Positions 4,819 through 38,260 of a DNA stretch of 46,211 bases are shown piece after piece. The stretch is from Bacteroidales bacterium (lineage in GTDB: Bacteria > Bacteroidota > Bacteroidia > Bacteroidales > UBA932), in NCBI GenBank assembly GCA_017544265.1, contig JAFYEM010000056.1, positions 1 through 46,211 of the forward strand, read 5' to 3'. The first letter of the stretch is position 1, and each line of letters opens with the position of its first letter. The position numbers and the translations under genes are program-made. The notes beneath the pieces are model-generated. The model did not search any database. It was given only the letters and a program-made list of their open reading frames with translations, and had not been told where the DNA came from.

Positions 4819-4834
4819 ATGTGCCCGCACACAT
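4819..4834. promoter_or_regulatory. Putative LacI-family operator, site 1
   Basis: ATGTGCCCGCACACAT is an imperfect palindrome with a central CG; the right half is perfect and the left half has two mismatches to the consensus ATGTGTGCGCACACAT shared by six sites in the window. It is almost exactly midway between the two divergent -7 boxes (about 50 bases to each), so one bound protein could control both operons. Confidence 0.65.
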
Positions 4835-4871
4835 AATTTGGAAAAAAGTTCCTCTTTTCAAGCGAAAGAGT

Positions 4872-4879
4872 TATATTTG
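4872..4879 (+). promoter_or_regulatory. Putative -7 box (TATATTTG) of the GH63-like operon
   Basis: TATATTTG matches TAnnTTTG exactly. It ends only two bases before the first ATG (4882), so a start site about seven bases downstream would fall at or inside the tandem ATGATG, giving a leaderless or nearly leaderless message. No -33 box is visible at the usual distance. The alternative is that the match is chance and the true promoter lies further upstream. Confidence 0.35.
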
Positions 4880-4881
4880 CA

Positions 4882-7032
4882 ATGATGAACAGATTTCTCA
4901 GACGCCTCTCTGCCTGCCTTGCGCTACTGCTACCTCTGGTAATGGAGGGCGCCGTATCGCACGATATCCCCAGTCTTTCCAAATGGGGACCCTATTCGAA
5001 AGAGTATTTCGGCATTTCGCACATTGACGATCTCGGTTCCGGAATCCAGGTGGAGTTCTGCCTGGTTCCGGGCGCCTACAGGCGCAACGTGAAAGTGCCT
5101 TGCGCGCTGTGGGAGTCGGACGTCCACCCCTGGATTGTTTCCGCCGACATGCGGCATATCACCTATCGCCATGAAATAGAATGGAAGGACAGGGTCTATG
5201 TGGACGCGACCTATCATGTCATAGACGAAAACAAGGTCCTGCTGGAGGCCCGCTGCGTCAACAGTACGGACTTGCTGCAGAACATCAGTCTCCAGCTGGC
5301 GGTACGCAAGTCGGGCGGTGCTCCGGAACAGTGGACGCCTGAAATCAGGCAGGGGGAGGGCTGGTTTACCGTGCGCTATCCGGAAGTGGATGCCACCTAC
5401 GGTGTGGCCTGGGACTATCCTATGAGCGAGGTCCGTCAGTGGAGATGCGCCAAACTGGAGCAGCTTATGCCCCGGAAGGTGCACGACCATGTGTTCAAGG
5501 ACCTGAAAGGTGACAGGAAAGGGCACTACACGGCTAATTTCCTGCGGCCGGTGGTGCTTCGTCCGCAGAGTGACACGACCTTGTGCATGGTGATTTTCAA
5601 GGGGGAGAAAGGGGATTTCTCGACTCCGGCTGCGCCTCCGCTCGAAATGACAAAAGCCCTGTCATTTCCCCCGGGCGGAGAAACCCCTCTCGGCATACAG
5701 TTGCTGCAGGCTACCCTGCTGACAAACGTCGTCTATCCCATAGACGCTTTCGGAGAGCCCATACGCCATTTCTGCCCCGGAAAAAACTGGAACAGCCTCT
5801 ATACCTGGGACTGCGGTTTCATAGGCTGGGCTATGGCGGAACTGGACCCGGAAAGAGCTTATGAAATCATCCGGCAGTACACGACGGCGCCGGAGGAAGA
5901 AGCGCCCTTCGTGCATCACGGCACCCCTCTCGCAACGCAGATTCTCGCAATCGGCGACGTCTGGGAGCGAGGCGGCTGCGATATGGACCATCTACGCGAA
6001 ATCTATCCCCGCCTGAAGCGTTTCTATGACTATATGACCGGGCCGCGTTTCCGCAAGGCCTCCGGTTTGCTGGAGACATGGAACCTGTTCTATAACAGCG
6101 GCGGCTGGGACGACTATCCGCCCCAGTGGACCCTCCGTCCGCAGAAGGAACTCCGCAGCCGTACCACCCCGATGGTATCCACCGCCTACTACATCCGTTG
6201 CGCGAAAATCCTCCGCCTTATCGCCGCCCATCTCGAGGCCTCGGCTAAAGGCAGACAGAAAAAGGCCTTCGCGGCCGATATCAAACAGTTCGGAGCCGAT
6301 ATCGCGGCAATGTCTAAAGGTATTCTCGACAATGCCTGGGACGCAGAGACCGGCTATTTCGGCTATGTTGAGCACGATTCCGCCGGCGTTCCCGGAGGAT
6401 TGTACCGGACTGAAGACGGAGTCAATTTCAATATGGGACTTGACGGCGTGACCCCGCTGGTCGCCGGGATAGTGGACGACAGCCAGAGGGAGGCGCTGCT
6501 CGCCCATATTTTCACCGAAGGGGAACTCTGGAGCAGCTGCGGCATCACCGCCGTGGACCAGGGCGCGCCCTACTACCGCAGGGACGGCTACTGGAACGGC
6601 ACTGTCTGGATGCCCCACCAGATGATACTCTGGAAAACCATGCTGGATCTGGGACGCCCCGATCTCGCCAAAAGGATTGCAGACACGGCACTGGAGAACT
6701 GGGAACGCGAATGCGCCGACTCCTACAACTGCTACGAGCACTTCATGATTGAAACCGGACGCGGCGGCGGCTGGAGCAATTTCTCCGGACTGTCCTCCCC
6801 GATACTCAACTGGTGGAATGCTTACAACAGGCCCGGGACCCTCTCCACCGGATTCAGCACGCTCGTGACCTCGGCGCTATGGCAGGACGGAAATGCTTCC
6901 GTAACCGTAACGCTCGAGTTCGACAGGGAACTCGCAGGGCGGGAGATTGCACTTGTCGCCTGTCTGTCGTCAGGGCCGAAGGAGTTCCGGATACGGGCGG
7001 GCAAAAAGCCGCTGACTATAACTCTCCGATAG
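4882..7032 (+). CDS. Exported GH63-like (clan GH-G, MGH1-type) glycoside hydrolase
   Basis: The 716-residue protein has a signal peptide (residues 1-24, ending LVMEGA) and then a beta-sandwich-like region to about residue 260. From about 270 it has an (alpha/alpha)6-barrel with the hallmarks of GH63/MGH1-type enzymes: NSLYTWDCGFIGWAMAEL, LREIYPRLKRFYDYM, NSGGWDDYP (candidate acid Asp410/Asp411), STAYYIRCAKIL, DGYWNGTVWMPHQM and CYEHFMIETG (candidate base Glu619 or Glu624). GH63 members cleave alpha-glucosidic or alpha-mannosidic bonds, and MGH members hydrolyse mannosyl- or glucosylglycerate; the substrate here cannot be read from the sequence. Either ATG of the tandem at 4882/4885 may be used. 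It is followed four bases later by the MBL-fold gene. The exported location and the SusC/D context suggest action on a glycan in the periplasm or at the surface. Confidence 0.75.
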   Translation: MMNRFLRRLSACLALLLPLVMEGAVSHDIPSLSKWGPYSKEYFGISHIDDLGSGIQVEFCLVPGAYRRNVKVPCALWESDVHPWIVSADMRHITYRHEIEWKDRVYVDATYHVIDENKVLLEARCVNSTDLLQNISLQLAVRKSGGAPEQWTPEIRQGEGWFTVRYPEVDATYGVAWDYPMSEVRQWRCAKLEQLMPRKVHDHVFKDLKGDRKGHYTANFLRPVVLRPQSDTTLCMVIFKGEKGDFSTPAAPPLEMTKALSFPPGGETPLGIQLLQATLLTNVVYPIDAFGEPIRHFCPGKNWNSLYTWDCGFIGWAMAELDPERAYEIIRQYTTAPEEEAPFVHHGTPLATQILAIGDVWERGGCDMDHLREIYPRLKRFYDYMTGPRFRKASGLLETWNLFYNSGGWDDYPPQWTLRPQKELRSRTTPMVSTAYYIRCAKILRLIAAHLEASAKGRQKKAFAADIKQFGADIAAMSKGILDNAWDAETGYFGYVEHDSAGVPGGLYRTEDGVNFNMGLDGVTPLVAGIVDDSQREALLAHIFTEGELWSSCGITAVDQGAPYYRRDGYWNGTVWMPHQMILWKTMLDLGRPDLAKRIADTALENWERECADSYNCYEHFMIETGRGGGWSNFSGLSSPILNWWNAYNRPGTLSTGFSTLVTSALWQDGNASVTVTLEFDRELAGREIALVACLSSGPKEFRIRAGKKPLTITLR

Positions 7033-7036
7033 ACAC

Positions 7037-8338
7037 ATGGACCGCAGGAATTTCATAAAGACATCTTTATTTGCCGGGGCGGCGCTCTGCCTGGACTGGG
7101 AGAAGGCGTTCGCAGCCGGGTGCCGTGACAGGCGCGTCGGAAAACCCTGGCATGGGTGGAAAGAAGGCCAGTTCCAGATTCACTTCATCTACACCGGCGT
7201 GGCCGAATCGATGTTCCTGATTTTCCCGGACGGGACGACGATGCTGCTGGACTGCGGCGATTTCGACGCCCTTGCCCGCGGAGAAAAGGCCGTTCCGCTG
7301 CTGCCGGATACGTCGAGGCACTCCGGCGAATGGATTGCCCGCTATGTGACAAGGGTCAATCCGTCCGTCACCGACGTGGACTATATGCTGCTTACGCATT
7401 ATCACAACGACCACGCCGGCAGCGACCGTTTCTATGCGGAGAAAATCATCCGCGACGGTCAGGAGTACTGCCTGAGCGGCTTCTCCCAGGCGGCGGAAAT
7501 CTTGAATTTCCGCAAGGCCATAGACCGCTGCTGGCCTTCCTATGACGACCCGATTCCGCATACGGCGGACGGCGGCGACCCCGACACGGTGGAGCATATC
7601 AGGCGTTTCTATAACTATATGCAGAAGCACCGCGGCCTCGAGATAGAAAAATTCCGTCTCGGTGCGACGGACCAGATCGTCCAGCTGCACCGCCCGGGCC
7701 GCTATCCCGGCTTCCAGGTCCGGAATATCTGCGCCAACGGCCGTATCGCCTTCCCGGACGGCAGGATAAAGGACCTTTTCGAGGCAAAGAAAACGCAGAA
7801 CCCGAAGAAACTTAGCGAGAACGCGATGTCGCTCGGGATGATATTCTCGTACGGCAATTTCCGTTTCTATACCGCCGGGGATTTCTCCGCCAAATTCCGC
7901 GACCCCGACGGGACGGTCCGCTTTATCGAAGACGATATCGCGGAGGTCTGCGGCCGCGCCAATGTCGCCAAACTCAATCATCACGGGCACAATTCCATGA
8001 GTCGGAAACTCATCGGCGCCCTCCGTAGCCAGGTCTATGTGAGTTGCGTCTGGGACCAGCTGCACAATCTCCCGGGCACGATGGAACTCCTTTCGGACCG
8101 GTCCATCTATCCGGATTACCGCATCATCTGTCCGACCATAATGCCGGCGGAGCGCCGCGCCAGCGACGGTGACGCCGCATGGATGAAAGACGTCGCCCCC
8201 GAATCCTTCGAGGGCTGCCACGTGGTAGTCAATGTCGAGAAGGGTGGTAAGCGCTACTCAGTGTCGTTCATAAGTGCCGCCGACGAGTCTATGACAGTCC
8301 GCAGCGTACTGCATTTCAAGGTAGCGCAGGACATTTAA
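7037..8338 (+). CDS. Tat-exported metallo-beta-lactamase-fold hydrolase
   Basis: The 433-residue protein starts DRRNFIKTSLFAGAALCL, a Tat-type signal of the RRxFxK form common in Bacteroidetes. The metal site of the MBL superfamily is intact: HYHNDH (His121, His123, Asp125, His126), then FYTAGDFS with a metal-bridging Asp, and LNHHGHN. LLDCGD precedes it at the usual place. The arrangement resembles the ComEC/Rec2-type soluble MBL domains. Such enzymes hydrolyse phosphodiesters, esters or lactones; a lactonase or phosphodiesterase would both make sense here, and the sequence does not choose. It is the second gene of the rightward pair. Its stop codon overlaps the stop of the opposing EEP gene by four bases. 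Confidence 0.75.
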   Translation: MDRRNFIKTSLFAGAALCLDWEKAFAAGCRDRRVGKPWHGWKEGQFQIHFIYTGVAESMFLIFPDGTTMLLDCGDFDALARGEKAVPLLPDTSRHSGEWIARYVTRVNPSVTDVDYMLLTHYHNDHAGSDRFYAEKIIRDGQEYCLSGFSQAAEILNFRKAIDRCWPSYDDPIPHTADGGDPDTVEHIRRFYNYMQKHRGLEIEKFRLGATDQIVQLHRPGRYPGFQVRNICANGRIAFPDGRIKDLFEAKKTQNPKKLSENAMSLGMIFSYGNFRFYTAGDFSAKFRDPDGTVRFIEDDIAEVCGRANVAKLNHHGHNSMSRKLIGALRSQVYVSCVWDQLHNLPGTMELLSDRSIYPDYRIICPTIMPAERRASDGDAAWMKDVAPESFEGCHVVVNVEKGGKRYSVSFISAADESMTVRSVLHFKVAQDI

Positions 8339-9207
8339 AACTCCAGTTCGGCTATGATCGGATAATGGTCGGAAAGGAAAGGGACGTCTTCGTAACTTTT
8401 CGTGATTGTCTCGTAGCTTACGCAGCGTGAGAAGCCTCTCCAGTAGATATAGTCCAGCGTCACCCTGTTTTTGCTCTTGTGCTCAGGGTCATAGAGATAG
8501 TCTCCGACGAAACGGCCGAAGCCGTGGAAGGTGGGCAGGTCGGAAATTACATTTTCCGCAGTGAGGCGGGCGTTCGGCATAATGGTGTCGAACTGGATTA
8601 TCTCGTCACAGTTCTGACGCATGTTGAAGTCCCCGGAAAGAATGACGGGAAGCCCTTCGGGATTGAGTGAAGAGCAGCGTTCATAGGCCATCTCGAGTCC
8701 CTTCCGCCTGGCTTCGGCGCTCTGGCTGTCGAGGTGGATGTTCATGAAGAAGAACTTCTCCCCGGTTTCCTTTAACTTGAATATGCCCCAGGTGGCAAGG
8801 TCGTAGTGGCGCGCCCCCCAGCTCTTGGAAGGGACTTCCGGGGTTTCGCTCATCCAGAACACACCCAGTTTAAGCGGCTTGATTTTCTTGCGGTTCCAGT
8901 AGATGGGTTCCGACTCCTTTTCCTTGCTGGAGGGGTCGCGCGGGATGTCGTATCCGGCATAGTTCCTGCAGGAACGGAGGATAAACTCATGCTGATCCCA
9001 TTCCGGCTCGTTTACTCCTATTATGTCCGGAGCGTAATCCTCGATGAGAGCCGGAGTCGCGGCCTGGCGGATTTTCCATTCGTATTCAGGCTTTTTTTCA
9101 CTGGCGGAGCCGAAGCGGATGTTGTAGGACATCACCTTGAGCCGGGTCTGGGCCTGCATGGCGAAGACCGCTCCAAGGCAAACTACGATGCAGAACAGTC
9201 TTCTCAT
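8335..9207 (-). CDS. Secreted endonuclease/exonuclease/phosphatase (EEP) family protein
   Basis: The protein has 290 residues with a signal peptide ending MQAQ (residues 1-19). EEP signature motifs follow in order: LKVMSYNIRF, DIIGVNEPEWDQ (metal-binding Glu), FFFMNIHLDS, ILSGDFNM, VTLDYIYW and LSDHYPI (catalytic Asp-His). All catalytic positions are present. Secreted EEP proteins are common beside SusC/D pairs and cleave phosphodiester or phosphomonoester bonds; the substrate here is unknown. It is the last gene of the nine-gene operon from 20731, coupled by a four-base overlap to the BACON gene before it. Its 3' end overlaps the convergent MBL gene with no terminator visible. A second EEP domain is encoded at 31219-32952. 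Confidence 0.85.
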   Translation of the reverse strand: MRRLFCIVVCLGAVFAMQAQTRLKVMSYNIRFGSASEKKPEYEWKIRQAATPALIEDYAPDIIGVNEPEWDQHEFILRSCRNYAGYDIPRDPSSKEKESEPIYWNRKKIKPLKLGVFWMSETPEVPSKSWGARHYDLATWGIFKLKETGEKFFFMNIHLDSQSAEARRKGLEMAYERCSSLNPEGLPVILSGDFNMRQNCDEIIQFDTIMPNARLTAENVISDLPTFHGFGRFVGDYLYDPEHKSKNRVTLDYIYWRGFSRCVSYETITKSYEDVPFLSDHYPIIAELEF

Positions 9208-9874: not shown

Positions 9875-10242
9875 TTCGTGGCAGGTTGTGTAAGCTGGAC
9901 TCTTATCGTCTCCGCACCGGTGGAGGTGTCTTCGGGGACGATAACGGCATAAGCCACCCGGCTTTCAGGGAAAGGATTGGCGTCATATTCAATGCGAATG
10001 CAAACATTGTACCCCTTTCCGGATGTAATATCCGGATGGAGCCACTTTATGTCCGAGTCGCCATAATCGAAACTGAGGTTCCACGTGACGGTGGAATAGA
10101 CAGGAAGATACAGATGTCCGGCCAGATTGCCCGGCACGTCCACCTCCGTGCTGTTGACGGCAAGCGGAACGGTCCATTCCCACTTCTTCGAGCAGCCGAG
10201 AAGGGGAAGCATACACAAGAGTATTATCAGGAACTTTCTCAT
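9871..10242 (-). CDS. Small surface lipoprotein
   Basis: The 123-residue protein has a lipoprotein signal (MRKFLIILLCMLPLLGC, Cys17). The mature part is beta-rich (YLPVYSTVTWNLSFDYGDSDIKWLHPDIT ... RVAYAVIVPEDTSTGAETIRVQLTQPA) and ends with the IRVQLTQPA strand pattern that closes BACON-type domains, so a single diverged BACON-like sandwich is my best guess. It follows SusD with a four-base overlap and overlaps the next gene likewise. Its position directly after SusD is where auxiliary surface glycan-binding proteins are encoded in classic loci, which suggests a binding role; this is inference from position only. Confidence 0.65.
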   Translation of the reverse strand: MRKFLIILLCMLPLLGCSKKWEWTVPLAVNSTEVDVPGNLAGHLYLPVYSTVTWNLSFDYGDSDIKWLHPDITSGKGYNVCIRIEYDANPFPESRVAYAVIVPEDTSTGAETIRVQLTQPATK

Positions 10243-11903
10243 AGGCCGTACTGATTGTATTCGTTATTGTCGAGGGCTCCGCCAGAATAGGTAACCTGTA
10301 CCTGCGGGATGGGGCAGTAGCGGTGGCAGGGCCTCGCATTGGTCTTGAGCAAGGAACCGCCGTACTCCTGTATGGTTTCCCACCAGATTCCCCAGCGGAC
10401 CAGGTCGTGTTTGCGGTTGTACTCGCCGAACAGTTCACGTGCGCATTCGTCCTGTATCATTTTCAGAATGGCCTCCTCGTCGGCAAAATCCGCAGGCTTG
10501 ACCTCCGGTAGGCCGGCGCGCCGCCGCACCTGGTTGAGATAGGAGCAGGCCAAGTCTTCATCCCCCCTGCGAAGGTGCGCTTCAGCCATGTTGAGGACGG
10601 CCCCGGCGTAGCGGTAAATCTTGAAATTGTTGCTGTCCTGCTTGTACTGCATATTGAAGCACCAGAACTTGTCGCCGAGGTAAGGGCGGGAAGTGGCAGA
10701 CATTCCGTCGAAATATAGCCAGTGCGGTTTTACGACGCTGCGGTCGTCGTAAGCGTTGAAGCCGAACCATCCGCACTGCATCCATCCGCCGCCATCCTCG
10801 ACCTGTCCGGCCGCCGTGCAGCTGTGGCGTCTGCGGTCTCCGCTATTGTAGGGCATCAGATCCTTGTACATGTGGTTCGTGGGACGCAGCGGGGAATTGG
10901 TCCTGGAGGCGGAGCCGAGTTCCGGGATGCCGACTTCGGCATAGTAGTCGGTGGAGGTGTCGAATTCCGTCACTTCGGAGTTGTCGTCGCCTTCATCGTC
11001 GAGGTCCGGGTCGAAATTGCCGCGCATAGGCTCGCAGCGCGATGCGAGTTCGCCGTAAACCTTGTATCCATAGTCCGTCACCGTCTGCCCCATCTCAAGT
11101 ATGGATTCCCCGGTGTAGCGGTTGCGGAAAGCGACATCCGAAAGTTTGTATTTCTCCAGCGGACCGTACATTTCCTCCAGAAGGCTGAAGAAGTCTATGG
11201 CCTCGCTCCACATGCCCTCCCACAGGCACATCTTGCCGCCGACCATCAGGCCGACAGCAGCTCCGGCACGGTACTGCTTCGGATTTGCGGGGGCGTAGGT
11301 TGGATAGAAGGGCAGCGCCCTGTCCTCGATAATACATTTGCGGAGCTCCTGGATGAGGGTGCGGCGAGTCTCGGAGGCGCTCATTCTCGGGAGATGGGCT
11401 ATCCGGTCGTTGTTCCTGTCGGTTACTTCCTCCTCGTAGAAAGGCACGTCGCCGAAGTTGCAGGTGAGAAGGTAGTAGAAAAGGCTGCGCAGCACTACGG
11501 CCTCGGCCCGCAGAGCCGCCTTTTCACTTTCATCGACGGAGGACGCCTCTATTGTACTTAAAATGGTGTTGCAACGGGATACTCCCCTGTAGAGATTTGC
11601 CCAGAGATTGGCGCAGAACTGGGGATTCATCGTGGAATACTGGCAGTAGGCCTCGTACTGGCCGGAAGAGCCCATCTGCATCAGGTCGGTCTGCGCCTCG
11701 GTGATGTAGAAATACTTGACTTCCTTGAAAATATCCCTCAGGGGGAGGTAGCAGCCATTGAGACCGGTCTCTATCTGGACTGCCGTCTGATAGTAGGTTT
11801 TCCTTGTGGAAGAACCGTAGATGTCTTCCTTGAGGTAGCTGCAGGAAACTGAGCCGATGGTGAGCAAAGCGCCGCAGAGAATATGCAGAACGGTCTTTTT
11901 CAT
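10239..11903 (-). CDS. SusD/RagB-family surface glycan-binding lipoprotein
   Basis: From the ATG at 11903 the protein has 554 residues and begins MKKTVLHILCGALLTIGSVSC, a lipoprotein signal with Cys21. A longer in-frame extension overlaps SusC and lacks a signal. SusD landmarks are present: LNGCYLPLRDI, the TPR-like helices with ANLYRGVSRCNTIL and LRAEAVVLRSLFYYLLTCNFGDVPF, then YRYAGAVLNMAEAHLRRGDEDLACSYLNQVRRRAGLP, ERR-type DECARELFGEYNRKHDLVRWG, and a C-terminal NNEYNQYGL. SusD caps the SusC transporter and captures the glycan. It lies two bases after SusC and overlaps the next lipoprotein by four bases. Length and features are normal for the family. Confidence 0.97.
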   Translation of the reverse strand: MKKTVLHILCGALLTIGSVSCSYLKEDIYGSSTRKTYYQTAVQIETGLNGCYLPLRDIFKEVKYFYITEAQTDLMQMGSSGQYEAYCQYSTMNPQFCANLWANLYRGVSRCNTILSTIEASSVDESEKAALRAEAVVLRSLFYYLLTCNFGDVPFYEEEVTDRNNDRIAHLPRMSASETRRTLIQELRKCIIEDRALPFYPTYAPANPKQYRAGAAVGLMVGGKMCLWEGMWSEAIDFFSLLEEMYGPLEKYKLSDVAFRNRYTGESILEMGQTVTDYGYKVYGELASRCEPMRGNFDPDLDDEGDDNSEVTEFDTSTDYYAEVGIPELGSASRTNSPLRPTNHMYKDLMPYNSGDRRRHSCTAAGQVEDGGGWMQCGWFGFNAYDDRSVVKPHWLYFDGMSATSRPYLGDKFWCFNMQYKQDSNNFKIYRYAGAVLNMAEAHLRRGDEDLACSYLNQVRRRAGLPEVKPADFADEEAILKMIQDECARELFGEYNRKHDLVRWGIWWETIQEYGGSLLKTNARPCHRYCPIPQVQVTYSGGALDNNEYNQYGL

Positions 11904-11905
11904 AA

Positions 11906-14900
11906 TCAGAACTTCGCTTTGATACTTAGGGTGTAGGTTCTCGGATTGGGATACGAGGCGTTGTCTATCCTCCTTCCGGAGGACGAGATGTCCGGATCGT
12001 ATCCGTTGTAGGAGGTGAAGAGCCAGAGATTGTCGCCGTTCAGGGAAACGTTTATGCTCTTCATCCACTTGACCTTGTTTCGGAGGTCAAAGGTGTAGCC
12101 GACGCTGAGTGTCTTGATTCTCAGGAAGGAAGCGTCGTGGATCAGTGCGTCGCTGCCGTAGGTGTCCTCGTCGTATGGCGCGGGGATGTCAGACCAGGGG
12201 TTGCGTACGGGGTGCCAGCCGTCCAGCATGTAGCGGTACTTGTTGGTCGTGTAGGTGGTCATGCCGAGCTGGCGCTCGGAGATGTTGTAGAGTTTTCCCC
12301 CTATGGAATATGAGAGGAAGAGGTCCACGTGGACGTTCCAGATATTGAACGAGTTCTGGAGGCCGCCGTAAACGACCGGATCCCCCGAGCCCATATAGAC
12401 ATAATCGTTGCGGTCCAGCACGCCGTCGTGATTCACGTCGACATACTTCCGCACGCCGTTCTTGTCGTAGCGCGAGGCGAAGGCATGGGTCGCTTTGTTG
12501 CGCTCCCTTTCCTCGTCGTTGTGCCATACGCCGGCGCACTGGAAGCCCCAGAGCGCATTCGCCGGGTAGCCCTTCACGTAGCCGTAGTACATCTGGCCGT
12601 CGTAGTGGACGGTCGATATGTACTCGGTGTCGCCGATGTCGAGCACAATCTGGTTGTTGTGGCTTATGTTGAACACGGTCTCCCAGTTGAAGTGCTTCCT
12701 CGTGATATTGTGCGAGGTTATGGAGAACTCGATACCCATGTTGCGCGTCTTGCCGAAATTCTTCCAGCGGGAGGAGTATCCGGTTTGGACTGAGTTCGCC
12801 ACCGACATAAGAAGGTCGGTAGTGTAGGAAAGGTAGGCGTCCATGGTCATGGAAATCCTGTCGCGCCACAGCGAAACATCGATGCCGGCGTTGTAGGATG
12901 TGGTTTTCTCCCAGGTAAGGTTGGGATTGTCCAGCCTCGAGGGATAATACGCTACCGGCGACAGTTCGCCGAACATCCACTCGGACGCGCTGTTAGAGAG
13001 AGTCGCGCTGGACACGCCTGTGGAGACGGCGTCGTTGCCGGTCATACCCGCGCTTAGACGCAGTGACAGATCCGTCAGCCAGGTCGCGTTCGCAACCGCC
13101 AGCCAGAGCTCCTTGCTTATGTTCCACCTGAATGCGCCAGCGGGGAAGAACGCCCATTTATGGCCTTCTGCGAAGTTGGACGCGCCGTCGGCCCTGGCGG
13201 TGAAGGTCAGGAAGTAACGTCCGAGAGCCGAGTAATTGGCCCTTCCTATGAATGACATCCGTTTCATCAGGCTCTTGTCCGTGGAGGGCGAAAGGTTGCG
13301 GCGGTCCATCACCGACTCGAGATTGTAGAAGGTCACGTTGTCGTCGAGGTATCCCCGGCCGGAGAGCGAGGTGTAGTTTATCCAGCGGCCCTGCATGGTG
13401 AAGCCGCCCATGAGCTGCAGCTTGTGCCCTCCGTTGAAGTTGCGGTCATAGTTGAGCGTGTTTTCCCACAGGAAGGAGTTGCGCTCATCGTTGGAACGCA
13501 TCGCGTAGGCGCCGGTGTGCCTGGTCTTGCTCACCGGGAGGGTGGTCGGCTCGTATTTGAAGTCCTGATAGATGTTGTACTTGTAAGTGAATGAAGTCTT
13601 GAGTTTGAGCCGGTTGTTCTTGGTCAGGGTAAACTCGAGCCAGGGATTCAGGCTCAGGTAGTACTCCCTCACCCAGTAGGTCGACGAAGTGGCGACTATG
13701 TACGGATTGTCGTAAACGCTTCCGCCGTTGGTGCCGGTGTCGGCATACTTGTTCCATGTGGAAGTGGGGTCCAGCAGCGGCGAGATGCAGACGGCGGCGC
13801 TGGTCGATGTGCCGTTGAGCTGTATCTTGTTACGGTCGCGGTGCTTGAAGTTGAACTGCACGTTGGCTCCTATCTTGAGCCAGCGCCAGAGGCGCCTGTC
13901 CACCTTGATACGGCTCACGAGACGCTTCATGTCATTGCCTATGATGATTCCCTGGGTGTCGTCGTAGCCGAGCGAGAAATAGATGTGGGAACGGGACTCG
14001 CCGGTGTTTATGGCAAGGTTGTAGGACTGGTTCACGGCCTTGCGGGTCATGACATCCTGCCAGTCGGTGCCTTTGCCGAAGGAAGCGGGGTTCTCGTAAG
14101 GATAGACCTTGCTGCCTTCCACATCGGTGGACTGGGCGGTTGTGAGTTTGAAGATGCCGCGGTCAAGGTTGAAATCGTTGCGGTACTGGGCGAACTCGGC
14201 CGCGTTCATCACGTCCATCTTGCGGGGAAGTTCCGCGAGGCCGACCTTGGCGCTGAAAGTGATGTTGAGGGTCTGGCTGTCGCCGCCCTTGGTAGTGACC
14301 AGGATGACGCCGTTGGCGCCGCGGGAACCGTAGAGGGCCGTAGAGGAAGCGTCTTTCAGGACGGAAACGCTCTTGATGTCCTCGGGATTTATGTCAGAGA
14401 AACTGTCCACTGCGTCCACCACGCCATCGACCACGATGAGCGGGTCGTTGGAGGCGTTTATGGAGCGGGAGCCCCTGACGCGGATGGTCATGCCCTCGCC
14501 GGGCTCGCCGCCGGTGCTGGTAATCTCCATACCCGCGACCCTGCCCTGCAGCATCTGGTCCACGGAAACAGAAGCGTCGCTCTTGATCTTGTCCATATTG
14601 ACAACCGCGACGGAGCCGGTCAGGTCGCTCTTTTTCTGTGAGCCGTAGGCTATGACCACAACCTCGTCCAGCGAGGTCTGCTGGATTTTCATAACCACGT
14701 TGATGGACTTGCGGTTATCCACGCGGATGACCTGCTCCTCCATTCCTATCATGGAGAACACCAGCGAGTCGTCATTCTTGCAGGAAATGGTGTATTTTCC
14801 CTCGCTGTCGGTCATGACCCCGGTGGTAGTGCCCTGTATCAGGACTGCGAGGCCTTCTATGGGGAGACCGTCCTCGCCGACGACCTGTCCTTTCACCGTC

Positions 14901-15675: not shown

Positions 15676-16313
15676 TGGCCGCCCTCCCGTTGTGAAATTT
15701 TACATCCGGCACTTGTCACAAGACCCCATTCGTCGGTAAAGGAAACAGTCAGCATCCCTTCGCGTGAACTTCCGGATTCTGCCGTAAACAATATGCTCCT
15801 GAAATCTGCGCCGATTTCGGGTGAGACTATCCAGCCTGCGTCGGAGCTGCAGCTGATGGAACCGCGCTGTGCCCCCGTGAGATTCGTGCGCAGGGGAATG
15901 TAGCAGCTTCCGCCCGAAGCCGGAACGGTCGCGTCTTCAAGCGAAATGAAGGCTTCGATGCCCTGCTGGCGGATGTAGAGGGTGTCCGCCGTGGCACCGT
16001 CGTAAGTCCGGACTATGACGTGGCCGAGCCGGTTGAAGCGAGGCGCACCCACCACGGACTCGTTGGAGTCGTAGCCGACGATTATCGCGCCCGCGTCCTT
16101 GAACAAGTCTGCCGGAACATGAACCCAAGTCTCGGGAGAGGACGCGCTCCAGACCCCGTCTGTGTCTATGAAGACAGAGAAATCACCCGCCGCCGGATAA
16201 ACTTCCACGGTCCCCAGGGACTTGCCCTGGGTTACGAGAACCTCCTGCGAGCATCCGGCAAGGCAGAGCGCAAGCCAGGTGGCCATAAAGAATATGCTGA
16301 AGTTCTTTTTCAT
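15672..16313 (-). CDS. BACON-like lipoprotein, two domains
   Basis: The 213-residue protein has a lipoprotein signal (MKKNFSIFFMATWLALCLAGCSQ, Cys21). Two BACON-like sandwiches follow. The first, about residues 30-120, has VEVYPAAGDFSVFIDTDGVWSASSPETWVHV and closes with DTLYIRQQGIEAF. The second, about 125-213, has VPASGGSCYIPLRTNLTG ... DAGWIVSPEIG and closes with TVSFTDEWGLVTSAGCKISQREGG. These are the Gly-Gly turn, the W-x-V strand and the Q-x-G closing strand of BACON domains. It belongs to the SusC/D operon (four-base overlaps on both sides) and would stand on the outer surface as a spacer or binding protein. Confidence 0.75.
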   Translation of the reverse strand: MKKNFSIFFMATWLALCLAGCSQEVLVTQGKSLGTVEVYPAAGDFSVFIDTDGVWSASSPETWVHVPADLFKDAGAIIVGYDSNESVVGAPRFNRLGHVIVRTYDGATADTLYIRQQGIEAFISLEDATVPASGGSCYIPLRTNLTGAQRGSISCSSDAGWIVSPEIGADFRSILFTAESGSSREGMLTVSFTDEWGLVTSAGCKISQREGGQ

Positions 16314-31218: not shown

Positions 31219-32952
31219 TTACTGATAATCAAAGATCAAAGTAGCGGTAATCGGCCAGTGGTCGGAAATGTAGGTTACTCCGGCATAGGGCTGGAAGTCA
31301 GTTCCGAAACTGCCGGGGACAAGACCGTGCTTGGAATTTTCATAGCAGTAGCGGTAGATTATATGGTCCAGGTTGGATCCTCCGTTGGAAACGGTTCCGC
31401 TGCTGTATATTGAAGAGAAACCTGCGCATCCTTCCACGAAGTTGTTGTAACTCACGGGGTAGTCCGTCTTGCTTGTCTTCCCGTCCACATTGCGGGCAAA
31501 GTAGTAGTTTGTCCACCCTATATAACCCTTCTCTTCTCCCATGATGACAGAAGCTGCTTCATTCAGGTCGCCGGTCACTATTACCGGAAGATGTTCAGTA
31601 TTGATGGCCTCGATCTGGTTGTACAGGATTTCCGCCTCCGCCTTGCGGGCCGCGTATGCCTCGCTGGTATAGTGGGCCGTAAAGTGGGTGTTGAAGAAAT
31701 AGAACACCTCGCCGGTCGCTTTTATGCGGAACTTGATCCAGGCGCAGTTGTGCCCGTCGTCGGAACCGACGCTGGAAGGATTTGACGACAGCCAGAACGT
31801 TCCCTTGTCCAGGACATCAAATTTGGAGGTCTTGTAGAAGATGGAGTTGGAAGAATCCGTGTTGTAGTCTTTCTTGTTCCAGAGGGAACCGGAGGAACCG
31901 CTGGATTCTTTACCGTAATCCACGCCAAGTCCGTAAGCCGCATAGCCGCTGGTATTGTCCAGAATATTGACTCTCTGCCGATACTCGCATTCCTGCGTGC
32001 CGATGATGTCCGGCTGGTTTTCGTTGAAGAACGCATAGATACCGCTCCTGCGCTTGCTCCAGTAGTGGCTGCTGCTCCAGCTGCTGTTGTCGTCGTTACT
32101 CTGGCAGGCGACGTTGAGGGACCATACCTGGAGCGAGGCGCGCGCAGCCGGCATAGTGGTTTCCATAGTCGTCTGGGCCGAACGGGTGATGGTGAACGGC
32201 TCTGTGAGACTCTTGGAAGAGATACTCCCGTCCGGAAGTATGGCATTCACGGTAAGGCTCGAATAAGAGCCGTCCGGAATGACCACGAAGAACTCCTTGG
32301 CGGAAGATGTACTCAGCTGCTGGGCGGAACTGCAATTGACCGCAACAGTCTTGTAGCTGTCCGCGGAACCGGTCATCGACAGTGTGTTGCCGCCGCGGCT
32401 AACGGTTCCGGGGCCTGAGACAGCTTTGTCAAAGGTGAGTTCGAGGCGGGAAACCTTGATGCTTCCCTTCAGCTGGAGTTTCAGAACCCCGCAGAGATTC
32501 TTCATGGTAAAGCTGCCGAATGTGCTGGCTGTACCGGATAGCATAGGATTGCTGTCTGTCGCGAACGTCCCTGCGGTGTATTCCACCTCGGAAGGAAGAG
32601 TGAAAGTAAATGTACTGCTTCCGTTATAGGTGGCCGTTGAGGGGTATGCAACGAAGTAGTTCTCGCTGCTGACATACTGTGGCCTGACGCCGCTGAAAGT
32701 GCCGTTTCCTGTTCCGGCTCCGCTTTGCAGAGTGAACTTGTTGCCTGTAGAATTACCATTGGCGAATACTGCAAGCTGGTCACCTTCGGACCATAGTACG
32801 CTGCTCCCGGAAAGGCTGGTTTTGGCCTCTTCCTCCTGACCGACGGTAATCTCGGTCAGGAGGTATTCGGGCTCTGATGGTTCAGATTTACTGCATGCCG
32901 CCAGCACGGCGAGGCCGGCAAGGAGGAAGGACAGTCTGATCCTTTTGTTCAT
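31219..32952 (-). CDS. Surface lipoprotein: fimbrillin-like domain fused to an EEP phosphoesterase
   Basis: The 577-residue protein has a lipoprotein signal (MNKRIRLSFLLAGLAVLAACSK, Cys20). Residues about 35-275 are fimbrillin-like (AKTSLSGSSVLWSEGDQLAVFANG ... NYFVAYPSTATY ... LCGVLKLQLKG). Residues about 280-577 are an EEP domain: QVWSLNVACQS, DIIGTQECEYRQ (metal Glu), FFNTHFTAH, VIVTGDLNEA, SNLDHIIYR and ISDHWPITATL, with all the catalytic positions kept. The fusion anchors a phosphodiesterase-like or phosphatase enzyme on a surface stalk; I am not aware of a described role for this pairing. It lies 15 bases after the giant modular gene and is followed at once by the 48-residue lipoprotein. 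The other EEP protein of the locus (8335-9207) lacks the stalk and the lipid anchor. Confidence 0.85.
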   Translation of the reverse strand: MNKRIRLSFLLAGLAVLAACSKSEPSEPEYLLTEITVGQEEEAKTSLSGSSVLWSEGDQLAVFANGNSTGNKFTLQSGAGTGNGTFSGVRPQYVSSENYFVAYPSTATYNGSSTFTFTLPSEVEYTAGTFATDSNPMLSGTASTFGSFTMKNLCGVLKLQLKGSIKVSRLELTFDKAVSGPGTVSRGGNTLSMTGSADSYKTVAVNCSSAQQLSTSSAKEFFVVIPDGSYSSLTVNAILPDGSISSKSLTEPFTITRSAQTTMETTMPAARASLQVWSLNVACQSNDDNSSWSSSHYWSKRRSGIYAFFNENQPDIIGTQECEYRQRVNILDNTSGYAAYGLGVDYGKESSGSSGSLWNKKDYNTDSSNSIFYKTSKFDVLDKGTFWLSSNPSSVGSDDGHNCAWIKFRIKATGEVFYFFNTHFTAHYTSEAYAARKAEAEILYNQIEAINTEHLPVIVTGDLNEAASVIMGEEKGYIGWTNYYFARNVDGKTSKTDYPVSYNNFVEGCAGFSSIYSSGTVSNGGSNLDHIIYRYCYENSKHGLVPGSFGTDFQPYAGVTYISDHWPITATLIFDYQ

Positions 32953-32967: not shown

Positions 32968-35900
32968 CTATATGCCGACATTGATATTCTCGGGCGTTCC
33001 TTCGTCGTTGACGGCCGTCACTTCCACCTTGATGTCGGAGAGGTTGAGGCAGCAGATGGAACTGGAATAGCTTGTTGAGGCCTGTGCGCCCACGACAACG
33101 CGGTCATCCTTCCGTATCAGCATATTCTTATACGTCTTTGTCTCCCAGACATCATCACTCGCGACGGTAAAATTGTTGTATATCGTCGCCGGGCGGTCAT
33201 TGGGCCAGGAAAAATCAGAGGTGTTCTCATTCTGCATATTGGCTCCGCCGCCATTGGCTCCGCTGTTGGAAGTGTTGCTGAGTATGCCGACGGCATGCTT
33301 TCCGGAGCAGGAGGTCTTGCCTTTGCGCACAGTCAAGGTAATGGTCACCGTGGCAACCTTGCCTTCCGGAACCGGGAACGGCGGCGTAAGGATCCAGGCC
33401 TTCTGGTTATTGCTGAACGTACCCAGAGTTACGTAACCGGGATGGATCATTACTCTTGCGTCAGTTCCGGCATCGCGGGCCCATTTGTTCAGGCGGCTGG
33501 AAGCAAAGGCGGAAGAAGTGAAGAGTTGGTAGGCGCCGTTGCTTTCCGAGAACTTCACGGGAGTCGTGCCCCTGTCTGTAAAGCTTGACGGCGAAGACGG
33601 TGCTTCAAGACCGACGGAGCCGGTGCCATATTCGAAGTCCCAAACAAACAGCGAGAAGTCCTCGGCAAGTACAACGCCAGGCTCAGTGATGGAGGAAGGC
33701 ATAGTGACTACAGTGAAGGCGAGTGTCTTGGCGGCAATCACTTCCGACTCCTGGTTGGAGCCATCGATCACCTTCAAGAAGTAAGGGGTGTTCTGCTCAA
33801 GGCCGGCGAAAATGAACTTAGGATACTTCCCGCTCCGCCAAAGCGTCTGTCCGGCGGAACCGGAAGGGAATGTATAGGACTGAACCGGCGTCGTGCATTC
33901 GGCGTCGCTATAAAGCGTAGCCGTGTAGCCGATCTGGTTGTCCGTATTCTCAGCGCCGCCTTCGTTCCAGGTGAAAGCAAGGGTGGAAGATGTCCGTTCA
34001 AGTACGGATACCCTGATGGGAACATCCTCGATTGCAGTAACCTCCACCTTGATGTCGCTGATGAACACACGTCCCTTGGAACTGGATGAACCCTCCGCGG
34101 CACCGAAGGTGATGCGGTCTCCCGGAAGGACGGTCAGTCCCTCGGCGGTAACCGTCGTCCACTCTGTTCCGAGCGCTACGGTCTGGTACTTGTCAGACGT
34201 GCCGCCCGCCGGCCAGCTGAAGTTCGCGGCATAGCCGCTCACATTGGCCTCGTCTGCGTTGAGCACGGCAATTCCCCAGCTGTTCTCCTGGCTGGAATTG
34301 TACTTCGCGGCAGTGACGGTCACGTTGACTATGGCCTTCTTGCCTTCCGGCACCGTAAACTGCGGTGTCAGTATCCAGCCCTTGCCGTCGGACTTACCCA
34401 TCTTGAGGTATCCGCAGTGGTAATAGACATTGCTGTCGTAGGCCCAATCCGCAAGGCGGCTGGAGGCAAGCGGCGCCGTGGTGGTCATCTTGACCTCACC
34501 GGCGGTGCTGTTGCCCGCAACATAATTCTTCACATCCGTTGAAGAGAAGGAAGATGTCGTGTTGGGAACGAATCCGGCCGCACCGGAGAGCATATCGGAG
34601 TGCCAGAGGAGCTCACCGAAGTCTTCGGCGAGAGCGACGCCCGTAGAAGTAATGGAAGCAGGCATCGGCACGATGCTGAACGCTTCGGTAGTTGCGGAAG
34701 CGACGTTGGACTCAATGCTGTCAGTCGTATCCGCCACCTTAAGATAATAGGTAGTGGCAGGGGTCAGGCCGCCGAATACGAATTTCGGCTGGGAACTACT
34801 CCAGCAGGCGTCTGAGGCCGGGATGTCGAAGGAAGCGACCTGAGCCGTGCAGGCGGCATCGCTGTAAAGGCTTGCCGTGAATGCGTGGGAAGGATCCCCG
34901 CTCCAGGAGAAGGGCAGTGTCGAAGAGGTCGCACCTTCTGCGGCAAAGGCGAAGAACGACGAGTTCGAAAGCGCCTTGACTTCCACGGAGATATCATCGA
35001 AAAGGACACGGGCCTTAGAATTGCTGCCGCTTTTGGTGCGTCCGAATGCTATCCTGTCGCCTCTCTGCAGCCTCATACCACTCACTGTCACTGTTTCCCA
35101 TGGAGAGGATTCATCCCTGTGTTTAGCAGTGGAAACTACCCTGTAGAGAGAGGCGTCATTTACATCCGGCCAGGTGAAGTCTGACTGGCGTCCGCCCTTG
35201 TCTCCGTCTTCGCTGACCACGCAGACCATAAAGTCATCGGACTGGTCTGCATTGTATTTTGTGAAACTGACGGTAACATCGGCAAGCGCCGTTTTGCCGT
35301 CCTCGATGGGGAATTCAGGAGTAAGGGCGAAGCCGTAAGTGCTGCTGGTTCCAAGTTTCAGATATCCGGGGTGAATGTAAACCTTGCCTTCGGACAGCCA
35401 GTCGGCAAGGCGGCTGTTGGCGATAGCCGTGGAGAAATTACCGGTGCTGCGGAAATCCTTCTCGTCAGGATTGATTGTCGCTCCGGACAGTGAACGGTTG
35501 GAGAAACTGCTCTGGTCGGAAGGAATAAATCCGACGCCGTTTTTAACGTAATCCGTTCCCCATGCATATTCGCCGAAATCCTCAGCATAGACAACTGCGG
35601 GGGCGGTAATATCCGACGTCGGCATCGGGACCACGGTAAACGCCTTGGTGCTTTCAGCGACCGGATCGCTCATTGCACCAGAGGTGGGATCCTCGACCTT
35701 GAACCAGTAGTCGGTTCCGGGGGCGAGACCGGCGATGGCAAAGCGCGGAGCTTCACCGACTATCCACTCTGCTGAAGCAGGCAGGTCGTAGCTTGCGAAT
35801 TCAGAAGCGCATGCGCTGTCGGTATAGACATGGATTCTCCAGGGCTTCTTGCTGTCGTTGGCAGGATTGGAACCATGCCAGCGGAGAGTGATGACTGAAG

Positions 35901-36762
35901 AATTGACGCTCCAGTGACCGGTGATGGTAACTGCTGAAGGTACGTAGGCAGGGGCCGTAATCGGATACAGTGTACTCGCTGCGGCGGTGAAGGCTGAAGT
36001 GCGGGAGAAAGCCATGGTGGTGCCGTCAGACGCGCTGATGACAAAGCGGAGACCGCTCGCATAATTCTGCGCAGGAATCGCCAGTGTAATCGGAGTGCCG
36101 AACGGGATACCGCCGGAAGGAGCCGCAACCTCTACATAATTGTTCTCGCCGCCGGAAAGGGACGAGAAGTCGGTCGTAAAGGCACCGCTCATCTTTTCCG
36201 TACCCAGAGCCTCCAGTTTGACGGAGGTGATGTTCAGTGATCCCTCGGCCGGGGCGGTCGGGGTGATCTTGAAGAGCGACATCATCGGGTTGAAGCTCAG
36301 CAAGGTAGAATTGGAAGTGCCGAGCATTATGTAAGCGGCGGGATCGTGCTGCCCGGCTACATAGGTCTGCTGAGCGGGAACGGTGACCGTCGCTGCTCCG
36401 GCGGAATAGCCGGAAATTGCAGAGGCAGGTGAAGCTGAATAATACGGTGCCGAAGATGTTCCGGAAATGGAGAACTGGGCATAATTGGTGCCGACGAAAC
36501 CATCGCCGTCCTCAAGCGCTGCGCTCAGGTTGCCGTTTACGCTGATAACGTCGCCAGCCTGCCATAGGGTAGGGTAGCCGTCTGCACCCTTCTCTCCGAG
36601 GTAAACCTTTGTCTCGGGGAGGGATGCCTTGAATACCATGATAGTGGCTTCAGGGGAATCGGCTTCCGTTGTCACTTCTGGGCTGTTATCCTGAATTTCT
36701 TTGGTGCAGGAAAAAGCAAGAGCAAGGGCAAGAAGGCTTGCAAGCAAAAGAATCTTTTTCAT
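32968..36762 (-). CDS. Giant modular surface lipoprotein, twin of the 27187 protein
   Basis: From the ATG at 36762 it has 1264 residues: MKKILLLASLLALALAFSC gives the lipobox Cys19. An alternative ATG at 36774 adds MTTA and would sit two bases from the stop of the 51-residue gene. The layout matches the 27187 protein: a fimbrillin-like domain (ETKVYLGEKGADGYPTLWQAGDVISVNG), then three fibronectin-like plus AEDF units with VVYAEDFGEYAW, VALAEDFGELLW and VVLAEDFSLFVW, and the motifs SRLADW, HPGYLKLG or HCGYLKMG, and TPEFPI. The two proteins are clearly paralogous along their full length, with the closest likeness in units 1 and 2, while the third unit resembles the module of the 24623 protein. 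Role inferred as glycan or surface binding. Confidence 0.8.
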   Translation of the reverse strand: MKKILLLASLLALALAFSCTKEIQDNSPEVTTEADSPEATIMVFKASLPETKVYLGEKGADGYPTLWQAGDVISVNGNLSAALEDGDGFVGTNYAQFSISGTSSAPYYSASPASAISGYSAGAATVTVPAQQTYVAGQHDPAAYIMLGTSNSTLLSFNPMMSLFKITPTAPAEGSLNITSVKLEALGTEKMSGAFTTDFSSLSGGENNYVEVAAPSGGIPFGTPITLAIPAQNYASGLRFVISASDGTTMAFSRTSAFTAAASTLYPITAPAYVPSAVTITGHWSVNSSVITLRWHGSNPANDSKKPWRIHVYTDSACASEFASYDLPASAEWIVGEAPRFAIAGLAPGTDYWFKVEDPTSGAMSDPVAESTKAFTVVPMPTSDITAPAVVYAEDFGEYAWGTDYVKNGVGFIPSDQSSFSNRSLSGATINPDEKDFRSTGNFSTAIANSRLADWLSEGKVYIHPGYLKLGTSSTYGFALTPEFPIEDGKTALADVTVSFTKYNADQSDDFMVCVVSEDGDKGGRQSDFTWPDVNDASLYRVVSTAKHRDESSPWETVTVSGMRLQRGDRIAFGRTKSGSNSKARVLFDDISVEVKALSNSSFFAFAAEGATSSTLPFSWSGDPSHAFTASLYSDAACTAQVASFDIPASDACWSSSQPKFVFGGLTPATTYYLKVADTTDSIESNVASATTEAFSIVPMPASITSTGVALAEDFGELLWHSDMLSGAAGFVPNTTSSFSSTDVKNYVAGNSTAGEVKMTTTAPLASSRLADWAYDSNVYYHCGYLKMGKSDGKGWILTPQFTVPEGKKAIVNVTVTAAKYNSSQENSWGIAVLNADEANVSGYAANFSWPAGGTSDKYQTVALGTEWTTVTAEGLTVLPGDRITFGAAEGSSSSKGRVFISDIKVEVTAIEDVPIRVSVLERTSSTLAFTWNEGGAENTDNQIGYTATLYSDAECTTPVQSYTFPSGSAGQTLWRSGKYPKFIFAGLEQNTPYFLKVIDGSNQESEVIAAKTLAFTVVTMPSSITEPGVVLAEDFSLFVWDFEYGTGSVGLEAPSSPSSFTDRGTTPVKFSESNGAYQLFTSSAFASSRLNKWARDAGTDARVMIHPGYVTLGTFSNNQKAWILTPPFPVPEGKVATVTITLTVRKGKTSCSGKHAVGILSNTSNSGANGGGANMQNENTSDFSWPNDRPATIYNNFTVASDDVWETKTYKNMLIRKDDRVVVGAQASTSYSSSICCLNLSDIKVEVTAVNDEGTPENINVGI

Positions 36763-36775
36763 CGCCGTCGTCATT

Positions 36776-36952: not shown

Positions 36953-36970
36953 AGTGTGTGCGCACACACT
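36953..36970. promoter_or_regulatory. Putative LacI-family operator, site 4, perfect palindrome in the leader
   Basis: AGTGTGTGCGCACACACT is a perfect 18-bp palindrome with central CG. It lies in the leader, about 18-35 bases after the expected start of transcription (near 36988), and 59 bases centre to centre... from site 5 it is about 68 bases away, so the pair straddles the promoter as sites 2 and 3 do. Confidence 0.75.
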
Positions 36971-37021: not shown

Positions 37022-37037
37022 TTGTGTGCGCGCACAT
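37022..37037. promoter_or_regulatory. Putative LacI-family operator, site 5
   Basis: TTGTGTGCGCGCACAT, one mismatch per half to ATGTGTGCGCACACAT. It lies 20 bases upstream of the -7 box of the leftward operon, where a -33 element would be, and about 46 bases beyond the end of the LacI-family gene. Confidence 0.65.
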
Positions 37038-37083: not shown

Positions 37084-38151
37084 TTACAGTTCTTCTGTCC
37101 AGAAATCGATGTTTTCGCGTAAGACTATATCTATTGGCAGATACTCCCGGAGCGTATGGTCAGGGACTCCGTAGAGCAGATAGTGCAGCATGGACTCCAC
37201 TGCGTTGAAGCCCTGCCGCTCCGGATGCTGGTTTATCAGGAAGTCCAGCGAGCCTTCGCGTATGCAGCGCTCATTTCCGCTTGTTACGTCGAAGCCGCCT
37301 ATTACCGGCCGGCCGCGCCTGCCCTTCAGGGCGTCGGAAATAAGATAGCCGGTCGATATGACTACGGCGACACCGCCGACCCCGGGATTTGCCTTGATGA
37401 ATGAACGTATTTCTTCGTGGGCCTCATCCGGGCTGCCCGCAGTGAAACTTACCTCGCGCAGAGTCCTTTCCCTGTCGTGCTCCTTGAAAAACGCCTTGAA
37501 GGCCGCAAGGCGGATAGCCGAGTTGTTGGACATCTGGGTGCCTATTCGCCTGGGCAGCAGCAGTGCCAGTTCCTTTCCTTCGGGGGTAAACCCGTCCATA
37601 AGGCGCGCCATCAGTCGCCCGCAGGTTTCCTGATGGGCCATGTAGGATGCAACCGGATTGGTGTCGGACACTTTTCCGTCCACGAAGACGTATGGGATAT
37701 GCCGCCCGTCAAGGCGGCTGCACAGCTCCCGTGTCTCTTCCACGAAGGTGGTGCCCAGAATGACCGCGGAGCAGTCCATCGCTGCAATCTGCCCGAAGGC
37801 CTCACGGCAGGACAGGGAATTGAACTGGTCGAAGAAGATGTATTCGCTCTTGATGGAGATGTCGCCGTACTCGCGGAATGCTTTGTCGAAGCCCTTGAGG
37901 ACCAGGTCCCAGTATTCTCCTTTCTCCGAAGATGGGATGGACACGACGATCCGGAAGGTCTTGCCGGTCTTCTTGAATGCCACGGCGGAAGTATGGAGGT
38001 TGTATTTGTAATTCTGCTTCTCCAGAACAGCCTGTACGGCGGCCATCGCCGCCTCGGACACCCGGCCGCGGTTATGCAGCACGCGGTCCACGGTCCCTAC
38101 GGAGACTCCGGCGAGTGCTGCAATCTGCTTGATGGTGAGTTGTTGTGACAT
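37084..38151 (-). CDS. LacI-family transcriptional regulator, likely controller of the locus
   Basis: From the ATG at 38151, preceded by AAGGAG, the protein has 355 residues. The N-terminal helix-turn-helix is typical: LTIKQIAALAGVSVGTVDRVLHNRGRVSEAAMAAV (residues 6-39). The hinge helix pattern Y..N..A..L is kept in outline (Tyr50, Ala56), but the Leu that normally intercalates at the central CG is Phe59. From about 65 a periplasmic-binding-like sugar-sensing domain follows (FRIVVSIPSSEKGEYWDLVLKGFDKAF ... IGGFDVTSGNERCIREGSLDFLINQHPERQGFNAVESM). It is the only DNA-binding regulator in the window and is flanked by operator sites 4-5 on one side and 6 on the other. The effector is probably a sugar acid or an intermediate of the adjacent catabolic operon (inference). 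Confidence 0.9.
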   Translation of the reverse strand: MSQQLTIKQIAALAGVSVGTVDRVLHNRGRVSEAAMAAVQAVLEKQNYKYNLHTSAVAFKKTGKTFRIVVSIPSSEKGEYWDLVLKGFDKAFREYGDISIKSEYIFFDQFNSLSCREAFGQIAAMDCSAVILGTTFVEETRELCSRLDGRHIPYVFVDGKVSDTNPVASYMAHQETCGRLMARLMDGFTPEGKELALLLPRRIGTQMSNNSAIRLAAFKAFFKEHDRERTLREVSFTAGSPDEAHEEIRSFIKANPGVGGVAVVISTGYLISDALKGRRGRPVIGGFDVTSGNERCIREGSLDFLINQHPERQGFNAVESMLHYLLYGVPDHTLREYLPIDIVLRENIDFWTEEL

Positions 38152-38169
38152 AAACTCCTTTGCCGACTG

Positions 38170-38201
38170 CAAAGATAAAATAATCTAATGTAAATGCACA
38201 A
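38170..38201 (-). promoter_or_regulatory. Promoter of the LacI-family gene
   Basis: On the minus strand TTG (38201-38199), 21 bases, then TATCTTTG (38177-38170), 18 bases before the ATG at 38151. Operator site 6 is about 60 bases upstream of the -7 box, so autoregulation is possible but would be from a distance. Confidence 0.55.
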
Positions 38202-38215
38202 GTTTGCTGGCTTGA

Positions 38216-38247
38216 TTTGCATTATTATGTTTTTTTATCTATTTTTG
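38216..38247 (+). promoter_or_regulatory. Promoter of the SDR-transporter-kinase-Gnd operon
   Basis: TTTG at 38216-38219, 20 bases, then TATTTTTG at 38240-38247, a full consensus match. Transcription should start near 38254, inside operator site 6, giving a leader of only about 18 bases before the ATG at 38272. Confidence 0.7.
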
Positions 38248-38260
38248 TGTGCGGACACAT
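38245..38260. promoter_or_regulatory. Putative LacI-family operator, site 6, over the start site
   Basis: TTGTGTGCGGACACAT, two mismatches to the consensus. It overlaps the last three bases of the -7 box and covers the expected transcription start, the classic place for repression. Confidence 0.65.

Follow-up and report, generated by a model that had tools for sequence, protein, structure and literature searches.

Gene content and operator sites of the locus

The stretch analysed here (the window) comprises 46,211 nucleotides of a draft Bacteroidales genome (GCA_017544265.1, contig JAFYEM010000056.1) and encodes a SusC/SusD pair, several large proteins, a catabolic operon and a LacI-type regulator. 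Six copies of a CG-centred 16-bp palindrome, interpreted below as operators of this regulator, lie upstream of its genes (Table 1). ATG codons were chosen as starts at 4743 (lamG), 4882 (GH63), 20731 (the 17162 gene), 20895 (GE), 36774 (the 32968 gene), 38151 (lacI) and 38272 (SDR).

Table 1. Putative operators and genes of the window; offsets give the start of a −7 element relative to the operator centre
Feature	Position	Strand	Remarks
Operator 1	4819..4834		Between lamG-domain gene (−) and GH63-like gene (+), divergent; −7 elements at +45 (+) and +46 (−)
Operator 2	20784..20799		Between 17162 gene (−) and GE gene (+), divergent; −7 elements at +28 (−) and +35 (+)
Operator 3	20878..20893		Same divergent gap as operator 2; one base ahead of likely GE ATG (20895)
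Operator 4	36954..36969		Upstream of 32968 gene; downstream side of a minus-strand −7 element
Operator 5	37022..37037		Upstream side of the same minus-strand −7 element as operator 4
Operator 6	38245..38260		Between lacI (−) and SDR operon (+), divergent; overlaps SDR −7 element
lamG-domain protein	2773..4743	−	Pfam
GH63/MGH1-like glycoside hydrolase	4882..7032	+	Pfam
Metallo-beta-lactamase-fold protein (MBL)	7037..8338	+	Pfam
Endonuclease/exonuclease/phosphatase (EEP) family protein	8335..9207	−	Pfam
SusD-like surface protein	10239..11903	−	Pfam
SusC-like TonB-dependent receptor	11906..14965	−	Pfam
Four abutting/overlapping genes upstream of SusC	14962..20731	−	No Pfam match
fn3 protein with C-terminal glucuronoyl-esterase-type domain (GE)	20895..24626	+	
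Large protein	24623..27010	+	No Pfam match
Large protein with fn3-type domains	27187..31002	+	Pfam
Protein with C-terminal EEP domain	31219..32952	−	Pfam
Large fn3-type protein preceded by operators 4 and 5	32968..36774	−	
LacI-type regulator	37084..38151	−	HTH PF00356 and Peripla_BP_4 PF13407, above cut-off
SDR-family dehydrogenase, first gene of catabolic operon	38272..39027	+	
Nramp-family membrane protein	39027..40286	+	GTGS in place of DPGN
PfkB-family sugar(-acid) kinase	40289..41335	+	Nearest solved structure is a 2-keto-3-deoxygluconate kinase
6-phosphogluconate dehydrogenase (Gnd)	41332..42750	+	Only match in draft genome

Six places in the window match the palindrome at no more than three mismatches, against a mean of 0.10 in shuffled sequences (largest 2; none of 100 shuffles reached six). 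An earlier note on this DNA had located all six correctly and had rightly assigned the regulator to the LacI type, its sensor domain being of the sugar type. The central CG is kept in 6/6 sites, as claimed there, in a search that allowed mismatches anywhere. The copies had also been described as perfect or carrying one to three mismatches; each falls within that range (one mismatch at site 20784, two at each of the other five), but none is identical to the 16-mer quoted in the note. Site 36954 is nevertheless itself a perfect palindrome. The assignment of every copy to one of three divergent promoter regions applies to four sites, but not to 36954 and 37022, which occupy a tandem gap, downstream of lacI and upstream of the 32968 gene on the same strand. 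The sites therefore fill four gaps, three divergent (lamG/GH63, 17162/GE and lacI/SDR) and one tandem (lacI to the 32968 gene).

Across the whole draft genome (1,867,360 bases in 65 contigs, 90.5% complete), the 16-mer at three or fewer mismatches matched nine places: the six in the window and three weaker ones, each with three mismatches and all on other contigs, against one match for a reversed-pattern control. The earlier note had associated hundreds of genomic sites with a global regulator; none of that abundance was seen, and a CcpA-like or CRP-like global regulator with many genomic sites was rejected. The core pattern TGTGNNCGNNCACA occurs at seven genomic places (reversed control, one), six of them in the window, and the seventh falls within a 387-codon open frame. 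When the window was scanned with a weight matrix built from 27 sites of other genomes, the top six places were exactly these sites at 20.4–29.3 bits, and the best non-overlapping other place scored 5.6 bits; the training sites had been chosen by the core pattern, so this ranking is not fully independent. A strict operator form, TGTGTSCGSACACA, fits three of the six window sites. The putative sites are nearly exclusive to this locus, and the regulon is local rather than global.

The minus-strand chain of abutting or overlapping genes that includes SusC and SusD begins at 20731 with the 17162 gene. Judged by their spacing, the four genes ahead of SusC probably form one operon with SusC/D, and site 20784 is positioned to control SusC and SusD through this putative operon because their gene chain begins at 20731. 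The operator upstream of lacI has its centre approximately 102 bp before the lacI start.

Operator and regulator occur together in related genomes

Among 200 genomes of the genus, the window's own included, 86 had some match to the LacI-type protein at 1e-30 and six held a close version: the own genome (G000) and G082, G011, G184, G152 and G034, at 66–75% identity. A scan of named relatives gave two further loci, L107 and L108, with orthologues at 90–91% identity. Across the order, a search of 393 genomes (E 1e-70) recovered the regulator in four, namely the own genome, two of the genus and one of another family. The strict operator TGTGTSCGSACACA was present in 10 of the 200 genus genomes, and its reversed control in none. 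All six close-orthologue genomes carry three or four strict copies (G000 3, G082 4, G011 4, G184 3, G152 4, G034 3), against 4 of the 194 without a close orthologue (G043 1, G109 1, G138 1, G141 2). Such a split of 6/6 versus 4/194 has odds of 2.5e-9 if relatedness is ignored, and it supports the earlier proposal that the sites and the LacI-type protein belong to one regulon. The exceptional strict sites lie inside open reading frames (ORFs) in G043 and G138 and between ORFs in G109. Both strict sites of G141 are upstream of genes near SusC/D-like genes (L151 and L152), one of them also near an EEP gene 63% identical to that of the window.

Copies of the looser core TGTGNNCGNNCACA number eight in G082, five in G011, three in G184, seven in G152 and five in G034, and zero to five in the 18 genomes with only a 37–48% homologue; the co-occurrence argument rests on the strict operator form, not on this core. 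The arrangement of lacI with SDR-Nramp-PfkB-Gnd is kept in all five other close genus genomes, on two contigs in G011. In these five genomes one operator sits at the SDR promoter, and others are found upstream of EEP, SusC, lamG or GH63 genes or close to them. Sites are likewise present in L107 (91%) and L108. The SDR-Nramp-PfkB-Gnd operon with its operator was found in L107, and it was not seen within the stretch of L108 examined.

UxuR-like homologues have a related putative operator

More distant LacI homologues (37–48% identity) numbered 22 after exclusion of partial homologues, those below 36% and those without an examined locus. In fifteen of them the core occurs in the 400 bp preceding the homologue's gene. 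These homologues were taken for UxuR because genes for D-mannonate oxidoreductase (uxuB) and mannonate dehydratase (uxuA) were found near lacI in both loci scanned (2 of 22), adjoining it in L080 and approximately 2.4 kb away in L097. Many of the other 20 have an SDR of 28–31% identity nearby. By neighbourhood, the UxuR-like proteins are the nearest relatives of the window regulator. Excerpts of PMC4052901 place Bacteroides UxaR, UxuR and KdgR on one branch. Identity of the regulator with UxuR was rejected: the operon is SDR-Nramp-PfkB-Gnd without uxuA or uxuB, and no uxuA match was found in the window's own draft genome at its 90.5% completeness.

The two bases that flank the central CG distinguish the two kinds of site: both are G/C in 30 of 33 sites of the close clade, and both are A/T in 14 of 16 UxuR-like sites. 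Two genomes, G082 (L068 and L100) and G034 (L074 and L095), hold both a window-type regulator and a UxuR-like paralogue, and in each the operators of the two kinds differ at these positions. Paralogous LacI regulators of this sort, housed in one genome with operators that differ beside the central CG, provide a natural test of operator discrimination. Aligned with the corresponding segment of E. coli PurR, the hinge region of the window-type clade has a three-residue insertion and Phe for Leu relative to the UxuR-like proteins. No claim is made that the hinge helix causes the operator difference, as the Phe, counted from the conserved Asn, is not clearly intercalating and only two clades were compared.

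Promoter geometry favours repression

Promoter geometry was assessed on 33 core sites from 15 stretches in eight genomes. The Bacteroidota −7 element TAnnTTTG, following the promoter consensus in excerpts of PMC7366714, occurs within 60 bp of 31 of these sites; when the flanks were shuffled 500 times, the count averaged 7.1 and never exceeded 14. Its offsets from the operator centre are concentrated at −13 (10 observed, 1.56 expected), −25 to −18 (8 against 0.50) and +27/+28 (7 against 0.10). At −13, the TTTG of the element extends into the operator, whose own sequence partly favours this offset; the shuffles account for that in the expected 1.56. The SDR promoter shows the −13 offset in all seven genomes where it was seen. 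With the consensus as given in those excerpts, the preferred offsets make the operator overlap the −7 element, the predicted start of transcription or the predicted −33 region, which suggests that a bound protein would block the promoter. Wherever two sites are separated by less than 100 bp, a −7 element stands between them; there are six such pairs (two each in the window and L107, one apiece in L108 and L068), with spacings of 94, 68, 70, 68, 57 and 61 bp.

The LacI-type protein is best read as a dedicated local repressor that binds the 16-bp operators and blocks six operons, at a probability of roughly 0.82. A ligand-free dimer would bind the CG-centred operators and block RNA polymerase at the lamG gene, the GH63-MBL operon, the long SusC/D operon, the GE operon, the 32968-EEP operon and the SDR-Nramp-PfkB-Gnd operon, with one operator also upstream of the regulator's own gene. 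When the glycan is available, a sugar acid or the phosphate of one would be present and would probably release the regulator, so that surface capture, hydrolysis, import and catabolism would be turned on together. Eight genomes agree in operator, regulator, target operons and promoter geometry, so that on computational grounds the regulon is firm for this uncultured genus of Bacteroidales, in which a whole glycan-use locus, SusC/D included, can fall under one cytoplasmic LacI-type switch.

Several observations weigh against this reading. Two of the 33 sites (L070 4303 and L072 14594) have no −7 element within 60 bp, and the elements flanking operator 1, the only ones there, lie at +45 and +46, which speaks against simple blocking at that site. 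Seven further core sites (three in G082, two in G152 and two in G034) were left out of the set of 33, and two of them lie upstream of UxuR-like paralogues. The looser core TGTGNNCGNNCACA is more widely distributed, being present in 31 of 40 chosen genomes, and it has one to three copies in 9 of the 17 genomes without any homologue of 37% or better. No close LacI orthologue was found in the G141 draft despite its two strict sites; part of the regulon may persist in this genome, its regulator gene having been lost or simply not captured in the draft. Seven of the 22 distant homologues are without the core upstream, a 35% homologue in another family (L140) has no core site in its 20-kb stretch, and four homologues at 30–32% have none within 400 bp. 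The sites also derive from related species and hence are not independent.

The strongest competitor is mixed control, in which the regulator binds the sites and activates some promoters, for example from operator 1; it is considered unlikely. Operator 1 lies midway between its two −7 elements, 45–46 bp from each and upstream of both core promoters, and from the other sites that lie upstream of a −7 element, at +27/+28, an activator could also reach the polymerase. Against activation, 18 of the 44 −7 offsets are −25 to −18 or −13, where an operator on or just downstream of the element suits blocking. Near lamG or GH63 genes elsewhere, moreover, the operator stands nearer the −7 element (−22 in L069; −15 and +28 in L073; −13 and +27 in L074). 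Less probable still is that a protein other than the neighbouring LacI-type regulator reads the palindrome, such as a CRP-like or global regulator, whose sites the TGTG...CACA half-sites resemble in the case of CRP. The motif is confined to the locus, its strict form tracks close lacI orthologues across the 200 genomes, and 15 of the 22 distant LacI homologues have related sites upstream of their own genes. The length and central CG also fit LacI-family operators, as the earlier note argued for the CG, most of those studied being CG-centred according to excerpts of PMC4052901. A functionless origin of the six copies, by chance or from a repeat, has a negligible probability, as nothing was found in its favour, no shuffle gave six sites, and corresponding promoters of other species carry sites too, with an unchanged −7 offset at the SDR site in 7/7.

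Comparison with known regulons

The repressor proposed here belongs to a familiar kind, because local LacI regulons, including those for uronates in Bacteroides, have already been published. In excerpts of PMC4052901 nearly 90% of the LacI-family regulators studied are local, and excerpts of PMC3878776 describe four LacI-type uronate regulators in B. thetaiotaomicron, with local one-component control of a few extracellular genes by KdgR, UxmR and others. The rarity that the earlier note attached to local LacI-type control was thus overstated; the regulon is a new, well-supported example of an already published type. UxuR of Bacteroides, which responds to glucuronate (excerpts of PMC3878776 and PMC4052901), is likewise a LacI-family protein of Bacteroidota. 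The UxuR-like homologues of the genus, possible orthologues of BT1434, share the TGTG..CG..CACA core with the window sites. The window system differs from UxuR in the absence of uxuA and uxuB from its operon and in the bases next to the central CG. The ManR regulon of B. thetaiotaomicron, which includes a SusC/D operon, similarly places SusC/D, extracellular enzymes and cytoplasmic catabolism under one local regulator, but ManR is of the GntR family and serves another sugar (excerpts of PMC3878776). Known beta-1,4-xylan systems have LacI-family or hybrid two-component system (HTCS) regulators, as mentioned in passing in excerpts of PMC12125979.

SusC/D systems under HTCS or extracytoplasmic function (ECF)/anti-sigma control have target genes of the same kind as the window; no such regulator was present among the 29 window proteins scanned with Pfam, the other ORFs and the rest of the genome being unscanned. 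A further likeness is to GntR/IdnR of E. coli, LacI-family regulators for gluconate and idonate, whose pathway also combines a sugar-acid kinase with Gnd. The E. coli GntR/IdnR operator is CG-centred, as in the window. The window system has, by contrast, a PfkB-type kinase, and an Nramp-family protein instead of GntP/IdnT. The window regulator matches the GntR and IdnR profiles weakly (27 and 26 bits against cut-offs of 400 and 500), its best NCBIfam match being RbsR at 50.7 bits against a cut-off of 382.

Exported proteins, catabolic operon and the Nramp-family protein

Comparison of exported proteins with solved structures did not point to a substrate: the lamG protein had one weak match (E 0.0021), and the MBL protein had none. 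Part of the GE protein has a 46% relative in locus L091 of G011.

Within the catabolic operon, Gnd passes the cut-off for 6-phosphogluconate dehydrogenase. Glucose-6-phosphate dehydrogenase (zwf) was not found in the 90.5% complete draft, which leaves its absence unproven; as Gnd is the sole gnd match while zwf was not found, it may serve sugar-acid use alone. The PfkB-family kinase is nearest to 2-keto-3-deoxygluconate kinases, and these relatives appear to fit that substrate better than gluconate. The SDR scores above the threshold of a broad 'glucose 1-dehydrogenase' subfamily. This operon may import and oxidise a gluconate-like acid, a reading judged somewhat less likely than not.

Although it aligns with metal transporters, the Nramp-family protein lacks the metal-site residues: GTGS replaces the DPGN of the best match, and SSP replaces its MPH. 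The GTGS and the arginine of the sixth-segment stretch are conserved in all 15 proteins compared, the window's included. Excerpts of a preprint (PMC12873925) describe the Nramp-related groups other than the NRMT-like ones and that of MntG as entirely uncharacterised. Literature searches returned no paper on an Nramp-type sugar-acid transporter among the matches listed, which leaves the absence of one unproven. We tentatively propose, with the balance slightly against it, that the protein is a sugar-acid importer rather than a metal transporter, and that it represents a carboxylate branch spread across Bacteroidales glycan loci, with PfkB replacing gluconokinase and Gnd acting catabolically without glucose-6-phosphate dehydrogenase. 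This would place an uncharacterised Nramp branch in a likely sugar-acid pathway. Five homologues from other Bacteroidales families, at 48–56% identity, lie next to glycan-type genes, as judged from the ten neighbours that were scanned: BNR and fucosidase; BNR with a lectin domain; GFO/IDH/MocA and ThuA; GH76, with one neighbour without a match; and MFS and alginate lyase. In the last of these loci (L134), the Nramp gene sits between a GntK/IdnK-type gluconokinase gene and an SDR gene.

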